Shown: piece by piece, positions 18,644 to 27,372 of the stretch
Layout: each line of letters opens with the position of its first letter
Position numbering within the stretch: the stretch's first letter is position 1
Source of the DNA: a virus
Length of the DNA: 27,372 nucleotides
IMG/VR virus record: IMGVR_UViG_3300022745_000128
Location: 1-27,372 of that record
Direction: 5' to 3' (one strand)
Translations under genes and position numbers: made by a program
The notes under the pieces: model-generated
What the model was told of the DNA's origin: nothing
The model's database searches: none
Seen by the model: the letters and a program-made list of their open reading frames with translations, nothing else

Positions 18644-18943
18644 TTGACACCCACACAAACTCTCGCCAAGGCCCTTGAAACGGCCCATACACCGGCTCTG
18701 GCCATGCAAGCGGCCAGGGAACTGCGCCGACTCGAAAAAGAGCGCTTGGATATGCTCCATGCCCTTGCTGACAGCATGAGCGCGTCTCCTGTCTGGAGTT
18801 CGGGCCGGAGTTCCGGTCATGGGCGGGTATCTTGGCGGTTGAGTTTTAGGTGGGCTGGGGCTTTGGCTTTGTCTTTGGCTTTGTCTGGGGCTTTGGCTTT
18901 GGCTTTGGCTTTGGGTTTGGCTTTGGCTAGATCAACGGCATAG
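18644..18943 (+). CDS. Doubtful gene ending in a repeat-made hydrophobic helix
   Basis: A 99 aa frame from TTG 18644 without a ribosome site. Residues about 5-45 form a charged amphipathic helix (A-A-R-E-L-R-R-L-E-K-E-R). A Ser/Gly/Arg linker follows, and then about 25 residues of Ala/Leu/Gly encoded by a hexanucleotide repeat. The last part would make a good membrane helix. It could be a real membrane protein whose helix grew by repeat expansion, or an open frame kept open by the repeat. Confidence 0.35.
   Translation: MTPTQTLAKALETAHTPALAMQAARELRRLEKERLDMLHALADSMSASPVWSSGRSSGHGRVSWRLSFRWAGALALSLALSGALALALALGLALARSTA
18857..18928 (+). repeat. Imperfect hexanucleotide repeat (GGCTTT)n
   Basis: A block dominated by GGCTTT units with a few variants (GTCTTT, GGGGCTTT, GGGTTT). 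It contains no stop in the frame of the doubtful gene. Such arrays expand and contract by slippage. Confidence 0.85.
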
Positions 18944-20589: not shown

Positions 20590-21201
20590 ATGTCCGACCA
20601 ACTCACCCCCGCCCAAGAAGCCCTTGCTGGCCCCTACGTTGCCAAGTACACCGCCATTGGCCTGCGCACCACCCCCGAGAACACGCAAGACCGAGCCATC
20701 GCAGCCAAGGCCGCTGAAGCGTTCTTGCGGGCTGACGCCAACTTCAACCAGTCCCGCACCTGCATCCACATCGACACCGCGTCCGACCCCGACCTCACAC
20801 TTGCCCTCGGCCCCGACCACGAAGGCCAAGACATGAAGGCCATGTACATCGTGACCGGGACTTGGCCCCACTTGGTTGCCCTTGCCAAGAAATTCACCGG
20901 CAAGGACGATGTATCAGACGCCTTCTGCGTCTCGCAGTACGCTGCCCATGCCCCGGCCCACGCCACCTTCATGCGGGACGTGCTGGGAGTCAAGGGCATC
21001 GACGTGCAGACTGACGCCTTGGACGGCTTCTCCCGGCACTGCGGCGTCACCTTGATCTACGAGAAGGCCATCTTCGTTGGCGACCCACCTGTAGCCTTCA
21101 AGGAAACCGCCGATGGCAAGCTCGACCCCATTTACACGAACGCCGAAGCCCATCAAGCAGGCTTGACCACGCCTGAAGGCTTGCCCTTGGCCGATGCCTG
21201 A
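20590..21201 (+). CDS. Unknown protein, 203 aa
   Basis: A 203 aa soluble-looking protein from ATG 20590 with AAGGA 7 nt upstream. It has helices in the first 50 residues (E-A-L-A-G-P-Y-V-A-K-Y), a mixed middle with C-I-H-I-D-T-A-S-D-P-D, and a later R-H-C-G-V-T-L-I-Y-E. No motif or family was recognised. It is the gene before the 10-bp repeat array and the MoxR-type gene, in the same C-rich codon style, so it may belong to that module. A 10-bp hairpin follows its stop. Confidence 0.7.
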   Translation: MSDQLTPAQEALAGPYVAKYTAIGLRTTPENTQDRAIAAKAAEAFLRADANFNQSRTCIHIDTASDPDLTLALGPDHEGQDMKAMYIVTGTWPHLVALAKKFTGKDDVSDAFCVSQYAAHAPAHATFMRDVLGVKGIDVQTDALDGFSRHCGVTLIYEKAIFVGDPPVAFKETADGKLDPIYTNAEAHQAGLTTPEGLPLADA

Positions 21202-21262: not shown

Positions 21263-21410
21263 CCTCCAAATGACCCTTGGCAAGCCCAAACCCCTATCCA
21301 CCATCTCTAATCGCTGGCTGCCCCTTCCCTGCGGCTCCAGCCCACAAGAGATGAACCCAGTCGGCAAGCGCGTGTTCAACAGGCTTACCAAGCTGTGGAA
21401 AAAGCACATC

Positions 21411-21490
21411 TAGCCGCATCTAGCCGCATCTAGCCGCATCTAGCCGCATCTAGCCGCATCTAGCCGCATCTAGCCGCATCTAGCCGCATC
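21411..21490. repeat. Eight exact tandem copies of TAGCCGCATC
   Basis: A 10-bp unit repeated eight times without error, directly before the MoxR-type gene. The period is near one helical turn, so identical sites would line one face of the DNA. Because 10 is not a multiple of 3, TAG falls in every rightward frame, so no translation can pass through. Confidence 0.95.
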
Positions 21491-21514
21491 TAACCCCAAC
21501 CCCTAGGAACCCAA

Positions 21515-22549
21515 ATGTCCAAACTCTCAATCGAACAATCCGCACAAGCCATCTTGTCATGCCCCGCCGTGACTTTCTCACTCGAAGGCCCACCCGGTGT
21601 AGGAAAAACGCACGGCATTGCCGCCCACTTGCGTGAAGCCGGGTACAACGTGCACATCATGCCTTGCCAGAACATTCCGGCGGAGGACACCGCAGCCTTG
21701 CCCGTGGTCAAGAAAAACGGGACTGTGGAATTCGCCACCCCTGAGATGTGGCATCCCGCACCCAAGACCGCCTTCATCTTGGACGAGTTGTGGAAGGCCC
21801 CCGACGACATTCTCAATGCCTTCTTGCCTATGGTGCACGGTTTCCCCCGCACCTACATGCACCACGAGTACCCCGAGGACACCATCGTTGTCGTGACTGG
21901 AAACGCCGCCGAGTTCCGTGTGGGTGACAAGTTCAAGCCGCACATGGGCAACCGCGTGGTGTCTATCGAGGTGGACGACCCGACACTTGCCGAGGCTACG
22001 AAAGTCATGCTTGACCGGGGTGTGGATGCTCGCATCATCGAATGGGTGCGCGTCAACCCACAGGCCTTGAAGTCTTTTGACCCGCAGGCTCAGACGAGGC
22101 CCGAGACGGAGTTGACGAGCTACTACGGGTACGACCAGCGCCACCCCAAGCGCAAGTTCTGCTCGATGCGCAGCTTGGAGCTTGCCTCCAACATCATCAA
22201 GGCCGTGCCCGACAGTGTGCGCCAGCCCTGCTTGCAAGGTGCTATCGGCCAGAAAGCGGCTTCCAACCTTGAACACTTCCTGCGGGAGTCCGCCGAGTTC
22301 ATCCCGCTTGCCGACATGGTGGCCGGGACTGCGAAAGTGCCCAAGCAACTGTTCGATCGTCGGCTTGCTGCGATCACCGCAGCGTCCGGGCTTGATGAGA
22401 GCAACTGGAAGCCGCTGCTCAAGTACGCGGAGCGACTTGGTTCGGAGTTGAAGCAAGTGTTCCTGCTGAATGCAAGCCGCAAGAAAGTGAGTGCCGACTT
22501 GCTGGTGAAGTCCCAGACTTGGCGAAACGAGCTTGCTGTAATCTTGTAA
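21515..22549 (+). CDS. MoxR/CobS-like AAA+ ATPase
   Basis: A 344 aa AAA+ ATPase. Walker A is G-P-P-G-V-G-K-T at residues 25-32, Walker B is F-I-L-D-E at 87-91, and the sensor-1 Asn is N130 in V-V-V-T-G-N. A C-terminal helical part follows. It fits the MoxR/CobS group, whose hexamers remodel proteins together with a VWA-domain partner. Such a partner, the metallopeptidase-like/VWA gene, lies downstream at 23407, separated by three to five mini-genes. AGGA lies upstream of ATG 21515. Tandem stops (TAA, then TGA one base on) end it. Its phage-specific substrate is unknown. Confidence 0.9.
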   Translation: MSKLSIEQSAQAILSCPAVTFSLEGPPGVGKTHGIAAHLREAGYNVHIMPCQNIPAEDTAALPVVKKNGTVEFATPEMWHPAPKTAFILDELWKAPDDILNAFLPMVHGFPRTYMHHEYPEDTIVVVTGNAAEFRVGDKFKPHMGNRVVSIEVDDPTLAEATKVMLDRGVDARIIEWVRVNPQALKSFDPQAQTRPETELTSYYGYDQRHPKRKFCSMRSLELASNIIKAVPDSVRQPCLQGAIGQKAASNLEHFLRESAEFIPLADMVAGTAKVPKQLFDRRLAAITAASGLDESNWKPLLKYAERLGSELKQVFLLNASRKKVSADLLVKSQTWRNELAVIL

Positions 22550-22551
22550 TG

Positions 22552-22584
22552 AAAGGAGGGCCGGGCTTTCGCCCGGCTTGCATG
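22552..22584 (+). promoter_or_regulatory. Shine-Dalgarno to start spacer occupied by a hairpin
   Basis: AAAGGAGG (22552-22559) is followed at once by a 7-bp hairpin GCCGGGC/GCCCGGC (22560-22577) and then TTGC and the ATG of the first mini-gene at 22582. With the hairpin folded, the site sits about 4 nt from the ATG; unfolded it is 22 nt away. Confidence 0.65.
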
Positions 22585-22758
22585 AGACTTGACAATCCGG
22601 ATGTCCGAGTGTGGGGCCAAGTGTGGGGCCGAGTGTGGCTCCAAGTGTGGATACAAGTACGGGAACGAGTACTGGACCGAGTGCGGTCCCAAGTACAGAA
22701 ACAAGTGCGGGACCGAGTGCGGGGCCGAGTGCGAGTCCGAATTAGGAGCAGACCATGA
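22582..22758 (+). CDS. XDQV-repeat mini-protein 1
   Basis: A 58 aa protein, first of the array. It starts M-R-L-D-N-P-D-V-R-V-W and continues as four-residue repeats of the kind W-G-Q-V, R-E-R-V and L-D-R-V. The C-terminus is basic and ends I-R-S-R-P. The family is unknown to me. No cysteine, signal or membrane segment is present. Its stop TGA overlaps the ATG of the next unit (ATGA at 22755). The start is preceded by the hairpin spacer described separately. Confidence 0.75.
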   Translation: MRLDNPDVRVWGQVWGRVWLQVWIQVRERVLDRVRSQVQKQVRDRVRGRVRVRIRSRP

Positions 22759-22955
22759 GACTTGACAAGCCGGATGCCCGAGTGTGGGACCAAGTATTGG
22801 ACCAAGTGTGGTTCCAAGTGCGGAACCAATTGCAGGACCAAGTGTGGGTCCGAGTGGGGTTCCCAGTGTGGGATCAAGCGCGGAACCAAGTACGGGACCA
22901 AGTATTGGACCAAGTGCGGAACCGAGTTACACGCCGAGTGAGGAGCAGACCATGA
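22755..22955 (+). CDS. XDQV-repeat mini-protein 2
   Basis: A 66 aa paralog. It starts M-R-L-D-K-P-D-A-R-V-W-D-Q-V and includes L-D-Q-V, F-Q-V, R-N-Q-L and R-D-Q-V units. The tail is R-R-V-R-S-R-P. AGGAG lies 6 nt before ATG 22755, inside the end of unit 1. Its middle, with V-R-V-G-F-P-V-W-D-Q-A, is nearly repeated in unit 3. Stop overlaps the next ATG. Confidence 0.78.
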   Translation: MRLDKPDARVWDQVLDQVWFQVRNQLQDQVWVRVGFPVWDQARNQVRDQVLDQVRNRVTRRVRSRP

Positions 22956-23110
22956 GACTTGACAAGCCGGACGGCCCAGTGTGGGTCCGAGTGGGGTTCC
23001 AAGTGTGGGATCAAGCGCGGGACCAAGTGTGGGACCAAGTGCGGGACCGAGTACTGGACCGAGTGCGGGGCCAGGTGCGGTATCGAGTGCGGAACCAAGT
23101 TTCCCACTGA
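22952..23110 (+). CDS. XDQV-repeat mini-protein 3
   Basis: A 52 aa paralog starting M-R-L-D-K-P-D-G-P-V-W. It lacks the usual R-S-K-P tail and ends Q-V-S-H at a stand-alone TGA, so the coupling chain breaks here. A 50-nt stretch (23047-23096) is identical to one in unit 7 at 25253-25302, on the far side of the VWA gene. Confidence 0.75.
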   Translation: MRLDKPDGPVWVRVGFQVWDQARDQVWDQVRDRVLDRVRGQVRYRVRNQVSH

Positions 23111-23132
23111 ACCACAAGTTAGGAACAACCAA

Positions 23133-23282
23133 ATGTACTTATCCATTCCAAACCCATGTAGAACAAGAGTGTGGGGCCTAGTACTGTACTCAACCCAACA
23201 CGTAAGGGCAGCATGGAAGCCAGTCCTTGCACCTGTACGTGCTAGTACATACCTAAGATGCAACTTGATGACCCCCGATTGA
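23133..23282 (+). CDS. Degenerate mini-protein between array and VWA gene
   Basis: A 49 aa frame from ATG 23133 with AGGA 8 nt upstream. It keeps only R-V-W-G-L-V from the repeat pattern (near residue 12) and then reads Y-S-T-Q-H-V-R-A-A-W-K-P. It looks like a decayed or diverged array member. It overlaps the next frame by 25 nt. Confidence 0.45.
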   Translation: MYLSIPNPCRTRVWGLVLYSTQHVRAAWKPVLAPVRASTYLRCNLMTPD

Positions 23283-23452
23283 CATCCTCCCTGCTCCACA
23301 CGGTGTGGGACACAGCGTCCGATCAGGTATCGAATCAGGTGTGGAACCAACTCACTAAACTCCTGTGGCAGGCTTGCCACCTAACAACCTCAACCATCAA
23401 AGCATCATGTTCACTCAAGACGACCTCTCCAAACTCACTAAATCCCTTGTGA
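23258..23452 (+). CDS. Diverged XDQV-type mini-protein overlapping the VWA start
   Basis: A 64 aa frame starting M-Q-L-D-D-P, close to the array start M-R-L-D-N-P. It contains V-W-D-T-A, S-D-Q-V, S-N-Q-V and W-N-Q-L, the family pattern. The C-terminal third runs over the first 46 nt of the VWA gene in another frame. The ribosome site is poor. It may couple translation of the array to the VWA protein, or be a remnant. Confidence 0.45.
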   Translation: MQLDDPRLTSSLLHTVWDTASDQVSNQVWNQLTKLLWQACHLTTSTIKASCSLKTTSPNSLNPL

Positions 23453-24630
23453 CCCGCTTGCCGCACATCGAACCCTTCCTGTTCGTTATCCCGATGCGTG
23501 TCCTCTCACCCGAGGAGTATCAGGCCAAGATCCCCGCCCCATACCCGCAGACAGCGGCTTGCACATCGACCGAGTTCCTGTTCCAGTCGGAGTTCATTGC
23601 CCAAGCCCCGCCCCCGCAGCAGCGCGGCTTGATCTTGCACGAGATTCTGCACGGTGCGCTGGAGCACTTGTCCCACCCTTGGCGTGACAAGACGATCACC
23701 GATGAGTCATTCTTTCGCTTGCGCAACATCGCACAGGATGTGGTGGTGGAGAACTTTGTGGCCGAGCTGTCCGAAGCCGACCAGCCTGGAGTTGCCCCTG
23801 CCGATAGGTACATCCAGAACTTCCTGCCCTTGCCCGACAGCTACTCCAAGTACAAGGGCTGGAACTGGCGGGATGTGTACGACGACTTGCGCTCGCAAGC
23901 CGATGTGCAGCCCAACGATTCATTCGATCACCACGGGTACGGTGGAGACGACACCCCCGAGGCCGCACAAGCCCGAGCCGAGGCCGAACGCTTGTGGAAG
24001 TCCGCCCAGAAAGCCTCCGAAGCTGCCCGGCAGACCTTGGCTGGCAACGCTCCGGGAATCGACAACATCGCTATCACTGCGGCTGCCGAGAAAGTGCGCT
24101 GGCAAGACACCCTTGCCGACTTCCTGCAATCCATCCCCAGCCCTGAGCGCAAGACTTGGACCAAGGTGCGCCGCCGTCCGTTCTGCACACGTCAGGAGTA
24201 CCACCCGTCCAAGACCGGTGAACAGCCCGCCCTTGACCATGTGTACCTGTTCGTTGACACGTCCGGCTCCATGAGCGGAACCTTGAACACCGTGGCCGCC
24301 GACATTCTTGGCCTGATGCGGGCCGTACAAGTCAACACGCTGGAGATTGTGTATTACGACGTAGGAGTGCAGCGCCGGGACGTGATCGAATTCGACGACA
24401 TGGAAGGCTACACCATCACCTCTATGCCCGGAGGCGGAGGCACGGCAGTGCGACCTGCCATGGAAGAAGTGATTGGCAGTCCCGATTACGTTGCGGGTGC
24501 TCCATTCGTGGTGCTGACCGACGGATACGACGACTACAACATCGGCAGCTTGCCCACTGGCCCACTTGTCTGGCTGTCCTATGAGAAGCCCGTTAAAAGC
24601 GATCAGGGTGTGTCCCTGCTTGTCAAGTGA
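23407..24630 (+). CDS. Metallopeptidase-like and VWA-domain protein
   Basis: A 407 aa protein from ATG 23407 (the longer GTG start at 23365 is less likely). The N-terminal part resembles DUF2201-type metallopeptidase-like domains, with H-E-I-L-H at residues 78-82 followed by G-A-L-E-H. The C-terminal part is a von Willebrand A domain with a complete metal-binding site: D284-x-S286-x-S288, T346 in G-G-G-G-T, and D372 in L-T-D-G. The middle is a helical linker. Such proteins work with MoxR-type ATPases as co-chaperones, as in CbbQ/CbbO and CobS/CobT. Its GTGA stop is the start of unit 4, which ties it to the mini-gene array. Confidence 0.88.
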   Translation: MFTQDDLSKLTKSLVTRLPHIEPFLFVIPMRVLSPEEYQAKIPAPYPQTAACTSTEFLFQSEFIAQAPPPQQRGLILHEILHGALEHLSHPWRDKTITDESFFRLRNIAQDVVVENFVAELSEADQPGVAPADRYIQNFLPLPDSYSKYKGWNWRDVYDDLRSQADVQPNDSFDHHGYGGDDTPEAAQARAEAERLWKSAQKASEAARQTLAGNAPGIDNIAITAAAEKVRWQDTLADFLQSIPSPERKTWTKVRRRPFCTRQEYHPSKTGEQPALDHVYLFVDTSGSMSGTLNTVAADILGLMRAVQVNTLEIVYYDVGVQRRDVIEFDDMEGYTITSMPGGGGTAVRPAMEEVIGSPDYVAGAPFVVLTDGYDDYNIGSLPTGPLVWLSYEKPVKSDQGVSLLVK

Positions 24631-24767
24631 GACTTGGTAAACAGGATGTTCGAGTGTGGGTCCAAGTGCGGGACCAAGCGCTAGGTCGAGTGTGGGGCCA
24701 AGCGTGGCTCCCCGTGTGGGACCCAGTACAGGGACAAGTGTGGGACCGAATCAGGAGTAAGCCATGA
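24627..24767 (+). CDS. XDQV-repeat mini-protein 4 (GTG start on the VWA stop)
   Basis: A 46 aa paralog beginning (GTG) [11 protein letters not shown]. Its start GTG shares bases with the TGA of the VWA gene, so it is translated by reinitiation after the VWA protein. Repeat units include V-Q-V, R-D-Q-A and W-G-Q-A. The tail is I-R-S-K-P. Stop overlaps the next ATG. Confidence 0.7.
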   Translation: MRLGKQDVRVWVQVRDQALGRVWGQAWLPVWDPVQGQVWDRIRSKP

Positions 24768-24916
24768 GACTTGACAAGCCGGATGTTCGAGTGTGGGGTC
24801 CAGTGTGGGACCACGTGTGGTCCCACGTGCGGGGCCAAGTACTGGGCCAATTGTGGGACAAAGTGTGGGTTCAAGTGTGGGTCCAGGTTGGACACCGAAC
24901 TAGGAGAAAACCATGA
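24764..24916 (+). CDS. XDQV-repeat mini-protein 5
   Basis: A 50 aa paralog starting [11 protein letters not shown]. It is more diverged in the middle, with H for Q in W-D-H-V and W-S-H-V. The tail is R-T-R-R-K-P, the least regular of the set. AGGAG precedes ATG 24764. ATGA overlap with unit 6. Confidence 0.72.
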   Translation: MRLDKPDVRVWGPVWDHVWSHVRGQVLGQLWDKVWVQVWVQVGHRTRRKP

Positions 24917-25161
24917 GACTTGGTAAACAGGATGTCCAAGTGTGGGGCCAAGTGGGGAACCAAGTGTGGAACAGAGTGTGGGGCCAAGTGCGGGACCAAG
25001 TGTTGGACCAAGTGTTGGACCAAGTGTTGGACCAAGTATGGGACCAAGTGTTGGACCAAGTGTTGGACCAAGTGTTGGACCAAGTATGGGACCAAGTGCG
25101 GGACCAAGTGTTGGACCAAGTATGGGACCGAGTTACACGCCGAATCAGGAGCAAACCATGA
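24913..25161 (+). CDS. XDQV-repeat mini-protein 6, the longest and most regular
   Basis: An 82 aa paralog beginning [11 protein letters not shown]. Residues about 27-72 are nearly pure X-D-Q-V with X being R, L or W. The DNA has 12-nt units with a 48-nt block copied exactly twice (25003-25050, 25051-25098), so it looks recently expanded. The tail is R-R-I-R-S-K-P. AGGAG precedes the ATG; the stop overlaps unit 7. Confidence 0.8.
24991..25128. repeat. 12-nt tandem repeat inside unit 6, with two 48-nt copies
   Basis: Units of the form TGGGACCAAGTG or TTGGACCAAGTG run in phase with the codons, about eleven in a row. No stop occurs in the three forward frames, which is why several false reading frames appear here. 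The 48-nt block 25003-25050 equals 25051-25098. Confidence 0.92.
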
Positions 25162-25334
25162 GACTTGACAAGCCGAACGTACGAGTGTGGCTCCAAGTGG
25201 TGGTCCAAGTGCGGTATCGAGTACGGGTCCAAGTGTGGGACCAAGTGCGGGTCCGAGTACTGGACCGAGTGCGGGGCCAGGTGCGGTATCGAGTGCGGAA
25301 CCGAGTTACACGCAGAATCAGGAGCAAACCATGA
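25158..25334 (+). CDS. XDQV-repeat mini-protein 7
   Basis: A 58 aa paralog starting [11 protein letters not shown]. It is Arg-rich, with R-Y-R-V, R-V-Q-V and L-D-R-V. It shares a 50-nt identical stretch with unit 3 across the VWA gene. The tail is R-R-I-R-S-K-P. ATGA overlaps at both ends. Confidence 0.76.
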
Positions 25335-25483
25335 GACTTGACAAGCCGGATGTCCGAGGGTGGTACCAAGTGCGGGTCCAAGTGCGGGTCCGAGTGTGGG
25401 ACCAAGTACGGTATCGAGTGCGGGACCAAGTGCTGGACCGAGTGTGGAACCAAGCCCCACACCGAATCAGGAGCAAACCATGA
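25331..25483 (+). CDS. XDQV-repeat mini-protein 8
   Basis: A 50 aa paralog starting [11 protein letters not shown]. It has G where the others have V at residue 10. Repeat units include V-Q-V, R-V-R-V and W-D-Q-V. The tail is H-R-I-R-S-K-P. AGGAG and ATGA coupling on both sides. Confidence 0.75.
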
Positions 25484-25668
25484 GACTTGACAAGCCGAAT
25501 GCCCGAGTGTGGTACCAAGTGCGGTACCAAGTGCTAGGTCGAGTGTTGGACCGAGTGTGGGACCAAGTGCAGTACCAAGCACTAGGTCGAGTGTTGGACC
25601 GAGTGTGGGGCCAACTTGCACGCCGAATCAAGTTTCACGCCGAATCAGGAGCAAACCATGAGACTTGA
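25480..25668 (+). CDS. XDQV-repeat mini-protein 9, tail changed by a duplication
   Basis: A 62 aa paralog starting [12 protein letters not shown] short duplicated segment (CACGCCGAATCA occurs twice, at about 25619 and 25636) shifts the frame at the end. The R-I-R-S-K-P tail is lost; the protein ends in a different tail and stops 11 nt inside unit 10 instead of on its ATG. Confidence 0.68.
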   Translation: MRLDKPNARVWYQVRYQVLGRVLDRVWDQVQYQALGRVLDRVWGQLARRIKFHAESGANHET

Positions 25669-25798
25669 CAAGCCGAATCCCCAAGTATCGGACCAAGTGT
25701 GGGTCCAAGTGTGGGTCCAAGTACCGGACCAAGCGTGGGACCAAGTGTGGGACCCGGTGTGTACCCAAGTACTGCACCAAATCAGGAGCGAACCTTGA
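25658..25798 (+). CDS. XDQV-repeat mini-protein 10, last clear unit
   Basis: A 46 aa paralog starting M-R-L-D-K-P-N-P-Q-V-S-D-Q-V. It has V-Q-V, P-D-Q-A and W-D-P-V units and a Cys-containing variant near residue 35. The tail is I-R-S-E-P. Its stop TGA overlaps a TTG that opens the next frame (TTGA), preceded by AGGAGC. Confidence 0.7.
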   Translation: MRLDKPNPQVSDQVWVQVWVQVPDQAWDQVWDPVCTQVLHQIRSEP

Positions 25799-25935
25799 AA
25801 TTAGGAGTAAGTGCCAGATCACACATGTCATCCGTCTTCTACAGTATTCGCGCATCTACAACATTAGGCCCTGACCTAATCCAAATTCCAATCTTCTATA
25901 AATGCTTTATAGGTATTAAAAATGAAACTAGGTAA
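25795..25935 (+). CDS. Small coupled gene after the array (TTG start)
   Basis: A 46 aa frame from TTG 25795, with AGGAG 6 nt upstream in the same arrangement as the array units. It begins (TTG) M-K-L-G-V-S-A-R-S and has no XDQV repeats, being instead Ile/Ser/Phe-rich (Y-S-I-R-A-S-T-T-L-G). It may be a diverged relative or a foreign gene joined by the same start-stop arrangement. Base composition turns AT-richer here. Confidence 0.45.
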   Translation: MKLGVSARSHMSSVFYSIRASTTLGPDLIQIPIFYKCFIGIKNETR

Positions 25936-26047
25936 ATACAAACTGCCCATTGAAGTGTCGTTCAGTGACCTGCTGTACTGGTGGGACCCCATGTTTTCTC
26001 TGTCCCACGACCTGTACCACACCAGCCTTGAGGGGCTAAAAAAGTGA
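25922..26047 (+). CDS. Small coupled gene, M-K-L-G-K start
   Basis: A 41 aa frame from ATG 25922, overlapping the previous gene by 14 nt. It starts M-K-L-G-K-Y-K-L and has a Trp/aromatic middle (L-L-Y-W-W-D-P-M-F). The M-[RK]-L-G-K start recalls units 4 and 6, but no repeat follows. It ends in an overlap with a very short frame from GTG 26044 to TGA 26088. Confidence 0.45.
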   Translation: MKLGKYKLPIEVSFSDLLYWWDPMFSLSHDLYHTSLEGLKK

Positions 26048-26782: not shown

Positions 26783-27372
26783 ATGCAACTGACATATAAA
26801 TTTCGGCTACGGGATACAGCCGACAGCGAATTGCGCCGACAAGCGCGTGCCGTCAATTTCGTTTGGAACTACTGCAATGAGACACAGCAGCAGGCCGTCA
26901 AGCGTGGACGCAAGTGGTTGTCCAAATACGACCTTCAGAAGCTGACTGCTGGGGCTTCAAAAGAGTTGGACATTCACGCGCACACCATCCAAGGTGTTTG
27001 CTGCAAATACGACGACAACCGCAAGACCCACAAAAAAGCTTGGCTTCGATGGCGAAGTAACAAAAGGTCGCTTGGATGGGTGCCGTTTAATACAGGTCAC
27101 GTCATCTACAAAAACGGCGCATTTTGGTTTCGTGGACGCGCATATAAAGCGTGGGTAAGCCGAGACCTCGAAGAAGGACAAAGCTTTGGAGCAGGCAGTT
27201 TCAGCCAAGATAGTCAAGGGCATTGGTTCATCAATCTCCCCGTCGAGGTGGAATCAATCGAATCCGTTGGCGGCGATGCCGTTGGCATTGATTTGGGCCT
27301 AAAAGACTTGGCCAACATCAGCAACGGTAGCAAGATAGAGCACCCTCGTTGGTATCGCAAGATGCAAGAACG
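26783..27372 (+). CDS. TnpB-like RNA-guided nuclease family protein (IS605 OrfB), cut by the right edge
   Basis: The first 196 residues are visible; the gene continues past the window. AAGGAG lies 6 nt before ATG 26783. The N-terminus M-Q-L-T-Y-K-F-R-L-R and N-F-V-W-N-Y-C-N-E (residues 25-33) are typical of the OrfB/TnpB helical part. A beta-strand region (F-W-F-R-G-R, residues 114-119) follows, then the first RuvC motif G-I-D-L-G-L-K-D with catalytic D170. The remaining catalytic residues and the zinc finger would lie outside. No TnpA is seen upstream. The gene is tightly joined to phage genes, so it may be a domesticated copy. Confidence 0.85.
   Translation, partial: MQLTYKFRLRDTADSELRRQARAVNFVWNYCNETQQQAVKRGRKWLSKYDLQKLTAGASKELDIHAHTIQGVCCKYDDNRKTHKKAWLRWRSNKRSLGWVPFNTGHVIYKNGAFWFRGRAYKAWVSRDLEEGQSFGAGSFSQDSQGHWFINLPVEVESIESVGGDAVGIDLGLKDLANISNGSKIEHPRWYRKMQE

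Follow-up and report, generated by a model that had tools for sequence, protein, structure and literature searches.

Arrays of overlapping tetrapeptide-repeat mini-genes in phages and their link to the DUF6745 family

TALE effectors consist of nearly identical short repeats, each variable at two positions, and follow a modular code. Diversity-generating retroelements place hypervariable codons in a constant frame. The mini-genes described here resemble both in part. With TALE effectors, by analogy only, they share near-identical short repeats and two variable positions per repeat; unlike them, they have four residues per repeat, a single-helix prediction and many separate genes. With diversity-generating retroelements they share hypervariable codons in a constant frame, whereas the changes seen in the arrays fit gain, loss and fusion of units. 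The tetrapeptide repeat of the mini-genes also occurs inside long proteins matching DUF6745 (PF20530; five proteins, 7.6e-7 to 3.9e-40), which carry an X-[DNA]-Q-V repeat with the same frozen-codon 12-bp expansion. There the repeat lies within one protein of 340-620 aa, whereas in the arrays each mini-gene stands on its own and the core nearby has no repeat. A repeat-less phage homologue of DUF6745 is known from a cultured phage, gp174 of Microcystis phage Ma-LMM01 (L482 6947-8083), and no period-4 ORF was found within ~16 kb around it; this cultured phage could offer a way into laboratory work. In the library searched, no paper mentioned DUF6745 or the repeat strings.

The window analysed here is a viral record of 27,372 bp. 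Its minus strand carries head, portal and terminase genes, and further genes lie on the plus strand. Table 1 lists the ten proposed mini-genes, which encode 46-82 aa in X-D-Q-V tetrapeptides; all were confirmed, and so were the seven exact 4-base ATGA overlaps between units. They do not form the one contiguous tandem array of the original prediction. They lie in two blocks (22582-23110 and 24627-25798), and the stretch from 23111 to 24626 holds a degenerate unit and the DUF2201/VWA gene that splits the array in two. Two extra junctions had been proposed between units. Both the TTGA (25795) and the GTGA (24627) exist, but the GTGA lies between the VWA gene and the unit that opens block 2. A Shine-Dalgarno site had been noted in each junction; AGGAG precedes the other units but none was found at 22582 and 24627. 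The common R-[IV]-R-S-[KR]-P end is present but not universal, as the units at 22952 and 25480 deviate. Degenerate units after block 2 (25795, 25922) begin [ML]-K-L-G. Besides the division into two blocks, the original prediction overlooked that DUF6745 proteins contain this tetrapeptide as their internal repeat and that a repeat-less DUF6745 gene is the usual neighbour of such arrays.

Table 1. Positions of the mini-genes, degenerate units and neighbouring features in the window.
Feature	Position	Strand	Remarks
DUF6745-like gene	20590..21198	+	203 aa, diverged, repeat-less, C-terminally truncated; E=3.3e-10 and 34.3 bits in hmmsearch with a profile of phage DUF6745
MoxR-like AAA ATPase (phrog_1297)	21515..22549	+	bystander; shared with no other array locus
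GC-rich hairpin	22558..22579	+	between AAGGAGGG and ATG of mini-gene 1; centroid -17.5 kcal/mol, z-score -1.3, not significant
Mini-gene 1	22582..22758	+	58 aa; MRLDNPDVRV..RIRSRP; no AGGAG ahead
Mini-gene 2	22755..22955	+	66 aa; ATGA overlap, AGGAG; AlphaFold2 single helix 8-63
Mini-gene 3	22952..23110	+	52 aa; ATGA overlap, AGGAG; ends ..NQVSH
Degenerate unit	23258..23452	+	64 aa; MQLDDPR..SDQVSNQVWNQL; between blocks
DUF2201 metallopeptidase/VWA gene	23365..24630	+	421 aa; Pfam DUF2201 2e-10, DUF2201_N 1e-7; bystander
Mini-gene 4	24627..24767	+	46 aa; starts at GTG within the GTGA overlap with the VWA stop; Shine-Dalgarno match absent
Mini-gene 5	24764..24916	+	50 aa; ATGA overlap, AGGAG
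Mini-gene 6	24913..25161	+	82 aa; ATGA overlap, AGGAG
Mini-gene 7	25158..25334	+	58 aa; ATGA overlap, AGGAG
Mini-gene 8	25331..25483	+	50 aa; ATGA overlap, AGGAG
Mini-gene 9	25480..25668	+	62 aa; ATGA overlap, AGGAG; shifted tail
Mini-gene 10	25658..25798	+	46 aa; AGGAG; 11-base overlap with mini-gene 9
Degenerate unit	25795..25935	+	LKLGVSARS..; TTG start, TTGA overlap, AGGAG
Degenerate unit	25922..26047	+	MKLGKYKLPIE..; overlaps stop of preceding unit

The MoxR-like ATPase and the VWA protein were considered as functional partners of the mini-proteins and ruled out, both genes being missing from other array loci. A 10-mer, CATCTAGCCG, stands in 8.6 exact copies at 21407-21492, immediately upstream of the ATPase gene. 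The hexamer GGCTTT is repeated 11.7 times at 18859-18928, with an Ala/Lys-rich frame on the reverse strand. At the right end of the window, a TnpB-like transposase gene (phrog_506) begins (26783-27370) and runs off the end.

The same array was sought in other viruses. A scan by protein pattern found 10 relatives in viruses, and two DNA-pattern scans gave at least 119 and at least 120 stretches. The pattern of starts and overlaps recurs in at least ~95 further viral loci, each array with its own start, end and junction. Among the matches listed, 98 loci including the window encode 335 distinct mini-proteins with a mean of 13.6 tetrapeptides. Starts and ends are phage-specific (MKLKSV..RTIHR, MKQV..KENLK, MNSVK..EDLENE and others). 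Junction length is near-constant, usually one per phage, at -4, -8, -14 or -17. The largest array (L510 1-19001) comprises ~70 diverged head-to-tail mini-genes of the form MINTDCVEV..VWxKVFR, mostly with -4/-8 overlaps, in a 347-kb phage. When two mini-gene start patterns were run against 84,980 cellular species genomes, 0 and 31 matches were obtained and no clear array. One Gammaproteobacteria MAG contig ends in a possible array fragment (L156 1972-2142), which is perhaps phage DNA. BLAST found no array in cultured phages, which is weak evidence because BLAST masks such repeats.

The mini-proteins had been taken for paralogous repeat proteins of no described family, and the database searches support this. 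They gave no Pfam match above the family cut-off, only weak matches in PHROGs and none in NCBIfam or PADLOC. The DUF6745 domain itself was not found in them above the Pfam cut-off; since they have only the repeat region in common with the family, we do not count them as members. The DUF6745-like gene of the window had no match in PHROGs. With PADLOC, neither a mini-protein nor this gene was matched, and weak matches alone were obtained for a phage DUF6745 (0.019) and the AAA ATPase (0.0021).

In the window, the DUF6745-like gene lies ~1.4 kb upstream of the array with the ATPase gene in between, and its product is a candidate core partner of the mini-proteins. Clustering of neighbouring genes showed a repeat-less DUF6745 homologue near the arrays, always on the strand of the array where clustered. 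It was present in 34 of 95 array loci among the matches listed, and in 9 of the 10 loci with at least two mini-genes and 3 kb of sequence available to either side. By alignment, the repeat-less phage DUF6745 has a short linker in the region where repeat-bearing forms carry the repeat. A reciprocal scan was started from DUF6745 alone. Of the 41 short DUF6745 genes in the non-redundant set, 32 had mini-genes nearby, compared with 1 of 16 repeat-bearing ones (Fisher p ~1e-6), and 203 of 216 mini-genes were on the DUF6745 strand. In the one repeat-bearing case (L295), the mini-gene was probably called wrongly because stop-to-stop frames were read. Nine or ten short DUF6745 groups had no detectable mini-gene. 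We also searched whole contigs of 20 records, nearly all of them arrays with no DUF6745 in the piece first examined. The gene was present in 9 and was not found in 11, including contigs of 102 kb and 76 kb, all 11 being linear and possibly incomplete. In the 347-kb phage, the DUF6745 gene sits in a gap of the 70-gene array. Overall, the array and its DUF6745 link are well supported.

A 116-aa protein with an HSETGH motif is encoded alongside DUF6745 in 72 of 79 DUF6745 loci; it also emerged from the clustering of genes next to the arrays. It is conserved as AQGD..AHSETGHNHVM..RRQREYxPEGFRR (e.g. L242 4053-4415 and relatives), and its conserved His residues might bind metal. Other tetrapeptide inserts of DUF6745 are XDSV, XSAT and XNAV (L305, L320, L322, L311), with XSQL in cyanobacteria. 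Other sampled cellular DUF6745 proteins had no clear repeat.

AlphaFold2 (monomer) predicted mini-protein 2 as a single long helix over residues 8-63 with a mean pLDDT of 87. By helix geometry, the hydrophobic stripe of this helix spirals, because a V at every fourth residue drifts ~40 degrees per repeat. In a structural model of DUF6745, the repeat region was of low confidence, and the DUF6745 fold had no PDB match.

Close relatives differ in the array. Between L109 and L134, 5 of 7,478 sites differ outside the array. Inside it, 80 of 2,243 differ and there are 12-bp indels, and one gene of L109 has the appearance of two L134 genes joined together. Several further pairs also differ more inside the array than outside, and some pairs are identical. 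Where contigs are near-identical, part of their difference in the array may come from misalignment or misassembly of the repeats. Positive selection had been considered from these comparisons and was dropped, since the same signal arises when units with differences at X/D alone are shuffled.

The split of DUF6745 into a core and separate helices is well supported by the genomic evidence, and docking of the helices on the core in trans is the most economical reading. We propose that in the mini-genes the repeat module of DUF6745 has become separated from the core, multiplied and diversified, and that it works in trans on a core lacking the repeat; to this we give an even chance of being right. 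A single mRNA would carry the mini-genes, and translation would pass from one to the next by coupled re-initiation at stop/start overlaps of 4-17 bases. The core, with its short linker in place of the repeat, would receive interchangeable helices. In each four-residue turn, Q and V would form a constant face, and X and D, which vary in composition, a surface for recognition. Through the 12-bp repeats, recombination could gain, lose or fuse units without breaking the frame, and the array would thereby serve as a fast-changing repertoire, of which changes in unit number and a likely in-frame fusion are seen. The most likely target would be a variable component of the host or of a rival phage. 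The fuller version, a constant DUF6745 core armed by any of dozens of recombination-made helix proteins from a translationally coupled array for modular recognition, is tentative and in our judgement falls short of an even chance. In favour of the split, internal (cis) and separate (trans) repeats alike show a single nearly frozen QV hexamer per array; against it, co-location and either/or occurrence could come from shared regulation or inheritance.

A different possibility is that the 12-bp DNA repeat itself matters, as a selfish expansion or a DNA element, and that the open frames are a by-product. Each array has one nearly frozen QV hexamer, third codon positions included, against local codon use; in most loci the GTC share of Val codons is 0.8-1.0 in the array versus roughly 0.05-0.4 elsewhere in the locus. 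Other frames are also often open. However, the consensus hexamers of 93 loci among the matches listed take seven forms, all CARGTN and thus all Gln-Val, so consensus variation between phages is limited to wobble sites. Starts, stops and overlap lengths are conserved as well, and the 70-gene array has lost the DNA repetition but kept the frame, the start motif and the V phase. A chance open repeat or a DNA-only element was rejected on the strength of the wobble-only variation across phages and by this diverged array, and we consider the DNA-repeat explanation very improbable. That the array is more than chance is borne out by independent viral arrays that keep their own junctions, with mini-genes in 0 of 80 PhoH control loci. 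Neither of the two outcomes named beforehand as refuting the first suggestion was seen: the start and overlap pattern is present in other phages, and the frame is preferred across them. The frame preference shown by the hexamers is accompanied in the 70-gene array by pN/pS values of 0.41 for the N-terminus, 0.71 for Q, 0.78 for V and 1.26 for X/D, which are modest and alignment-dependent. The X and D codons are most variable at positions 1 and 2. Hypervariable X/D beside frozen third positions can be read as recent unit turnover plus diversifying selection. From recurrence, starts, junctions and frame, we infer that the mini-genes are translated.

If the mini-genes are translated, their products might instead be inhibitors or decoys that mimic the repeat of host DUF6745 proteins and block them, the variation on both sides being an arms race and the phage DUF6745 a dominant-negative second part. 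The same tetrapeptide repeat does occur in DUF6745, a family that is also cellular; the arrays look virus-restricted, and variation at X/D is strong. However, the arrays occur with a repeat-less DUF6745 of the same phage and hardly ever with repeat-bearing forms, so a split of the phage's own protein fits better. Most sampled cellular DUF6745 proteins also have no clean XDQV repeat, and DUF6745 has no PADLOC match. We regard the decoy explanation as unlikely. The mini-proteins could also act alone, for example as self-assembling helical filaments or mixed-length scaffolds, DUF6745 being merely a frequent operon neighbour. Long uninterrupted predicted helices, the many lengths and copies, a mean net charge near zero and the array contigs in which DUF6745 was not detected all agree with this, but it gives no reason why a locus has either the internal repeat or the array, and we consider it improbable.

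If the split of DUF6745 is true, the arrays would be an undescribed viral way to hold a large and quickly changing set of protein parts, and up to ~70 coupled mini-genes per phage would serve one core protein. Modular recognition, if true, would amount to a repertoire at the protein level with a logic like that of a cassette library. The arrays would also account for a group of low-complexity genes in phages that are easily missed in annotation. For DUF6745, a family of bacteria and phages, what the repeats bind would be the first testable handle.
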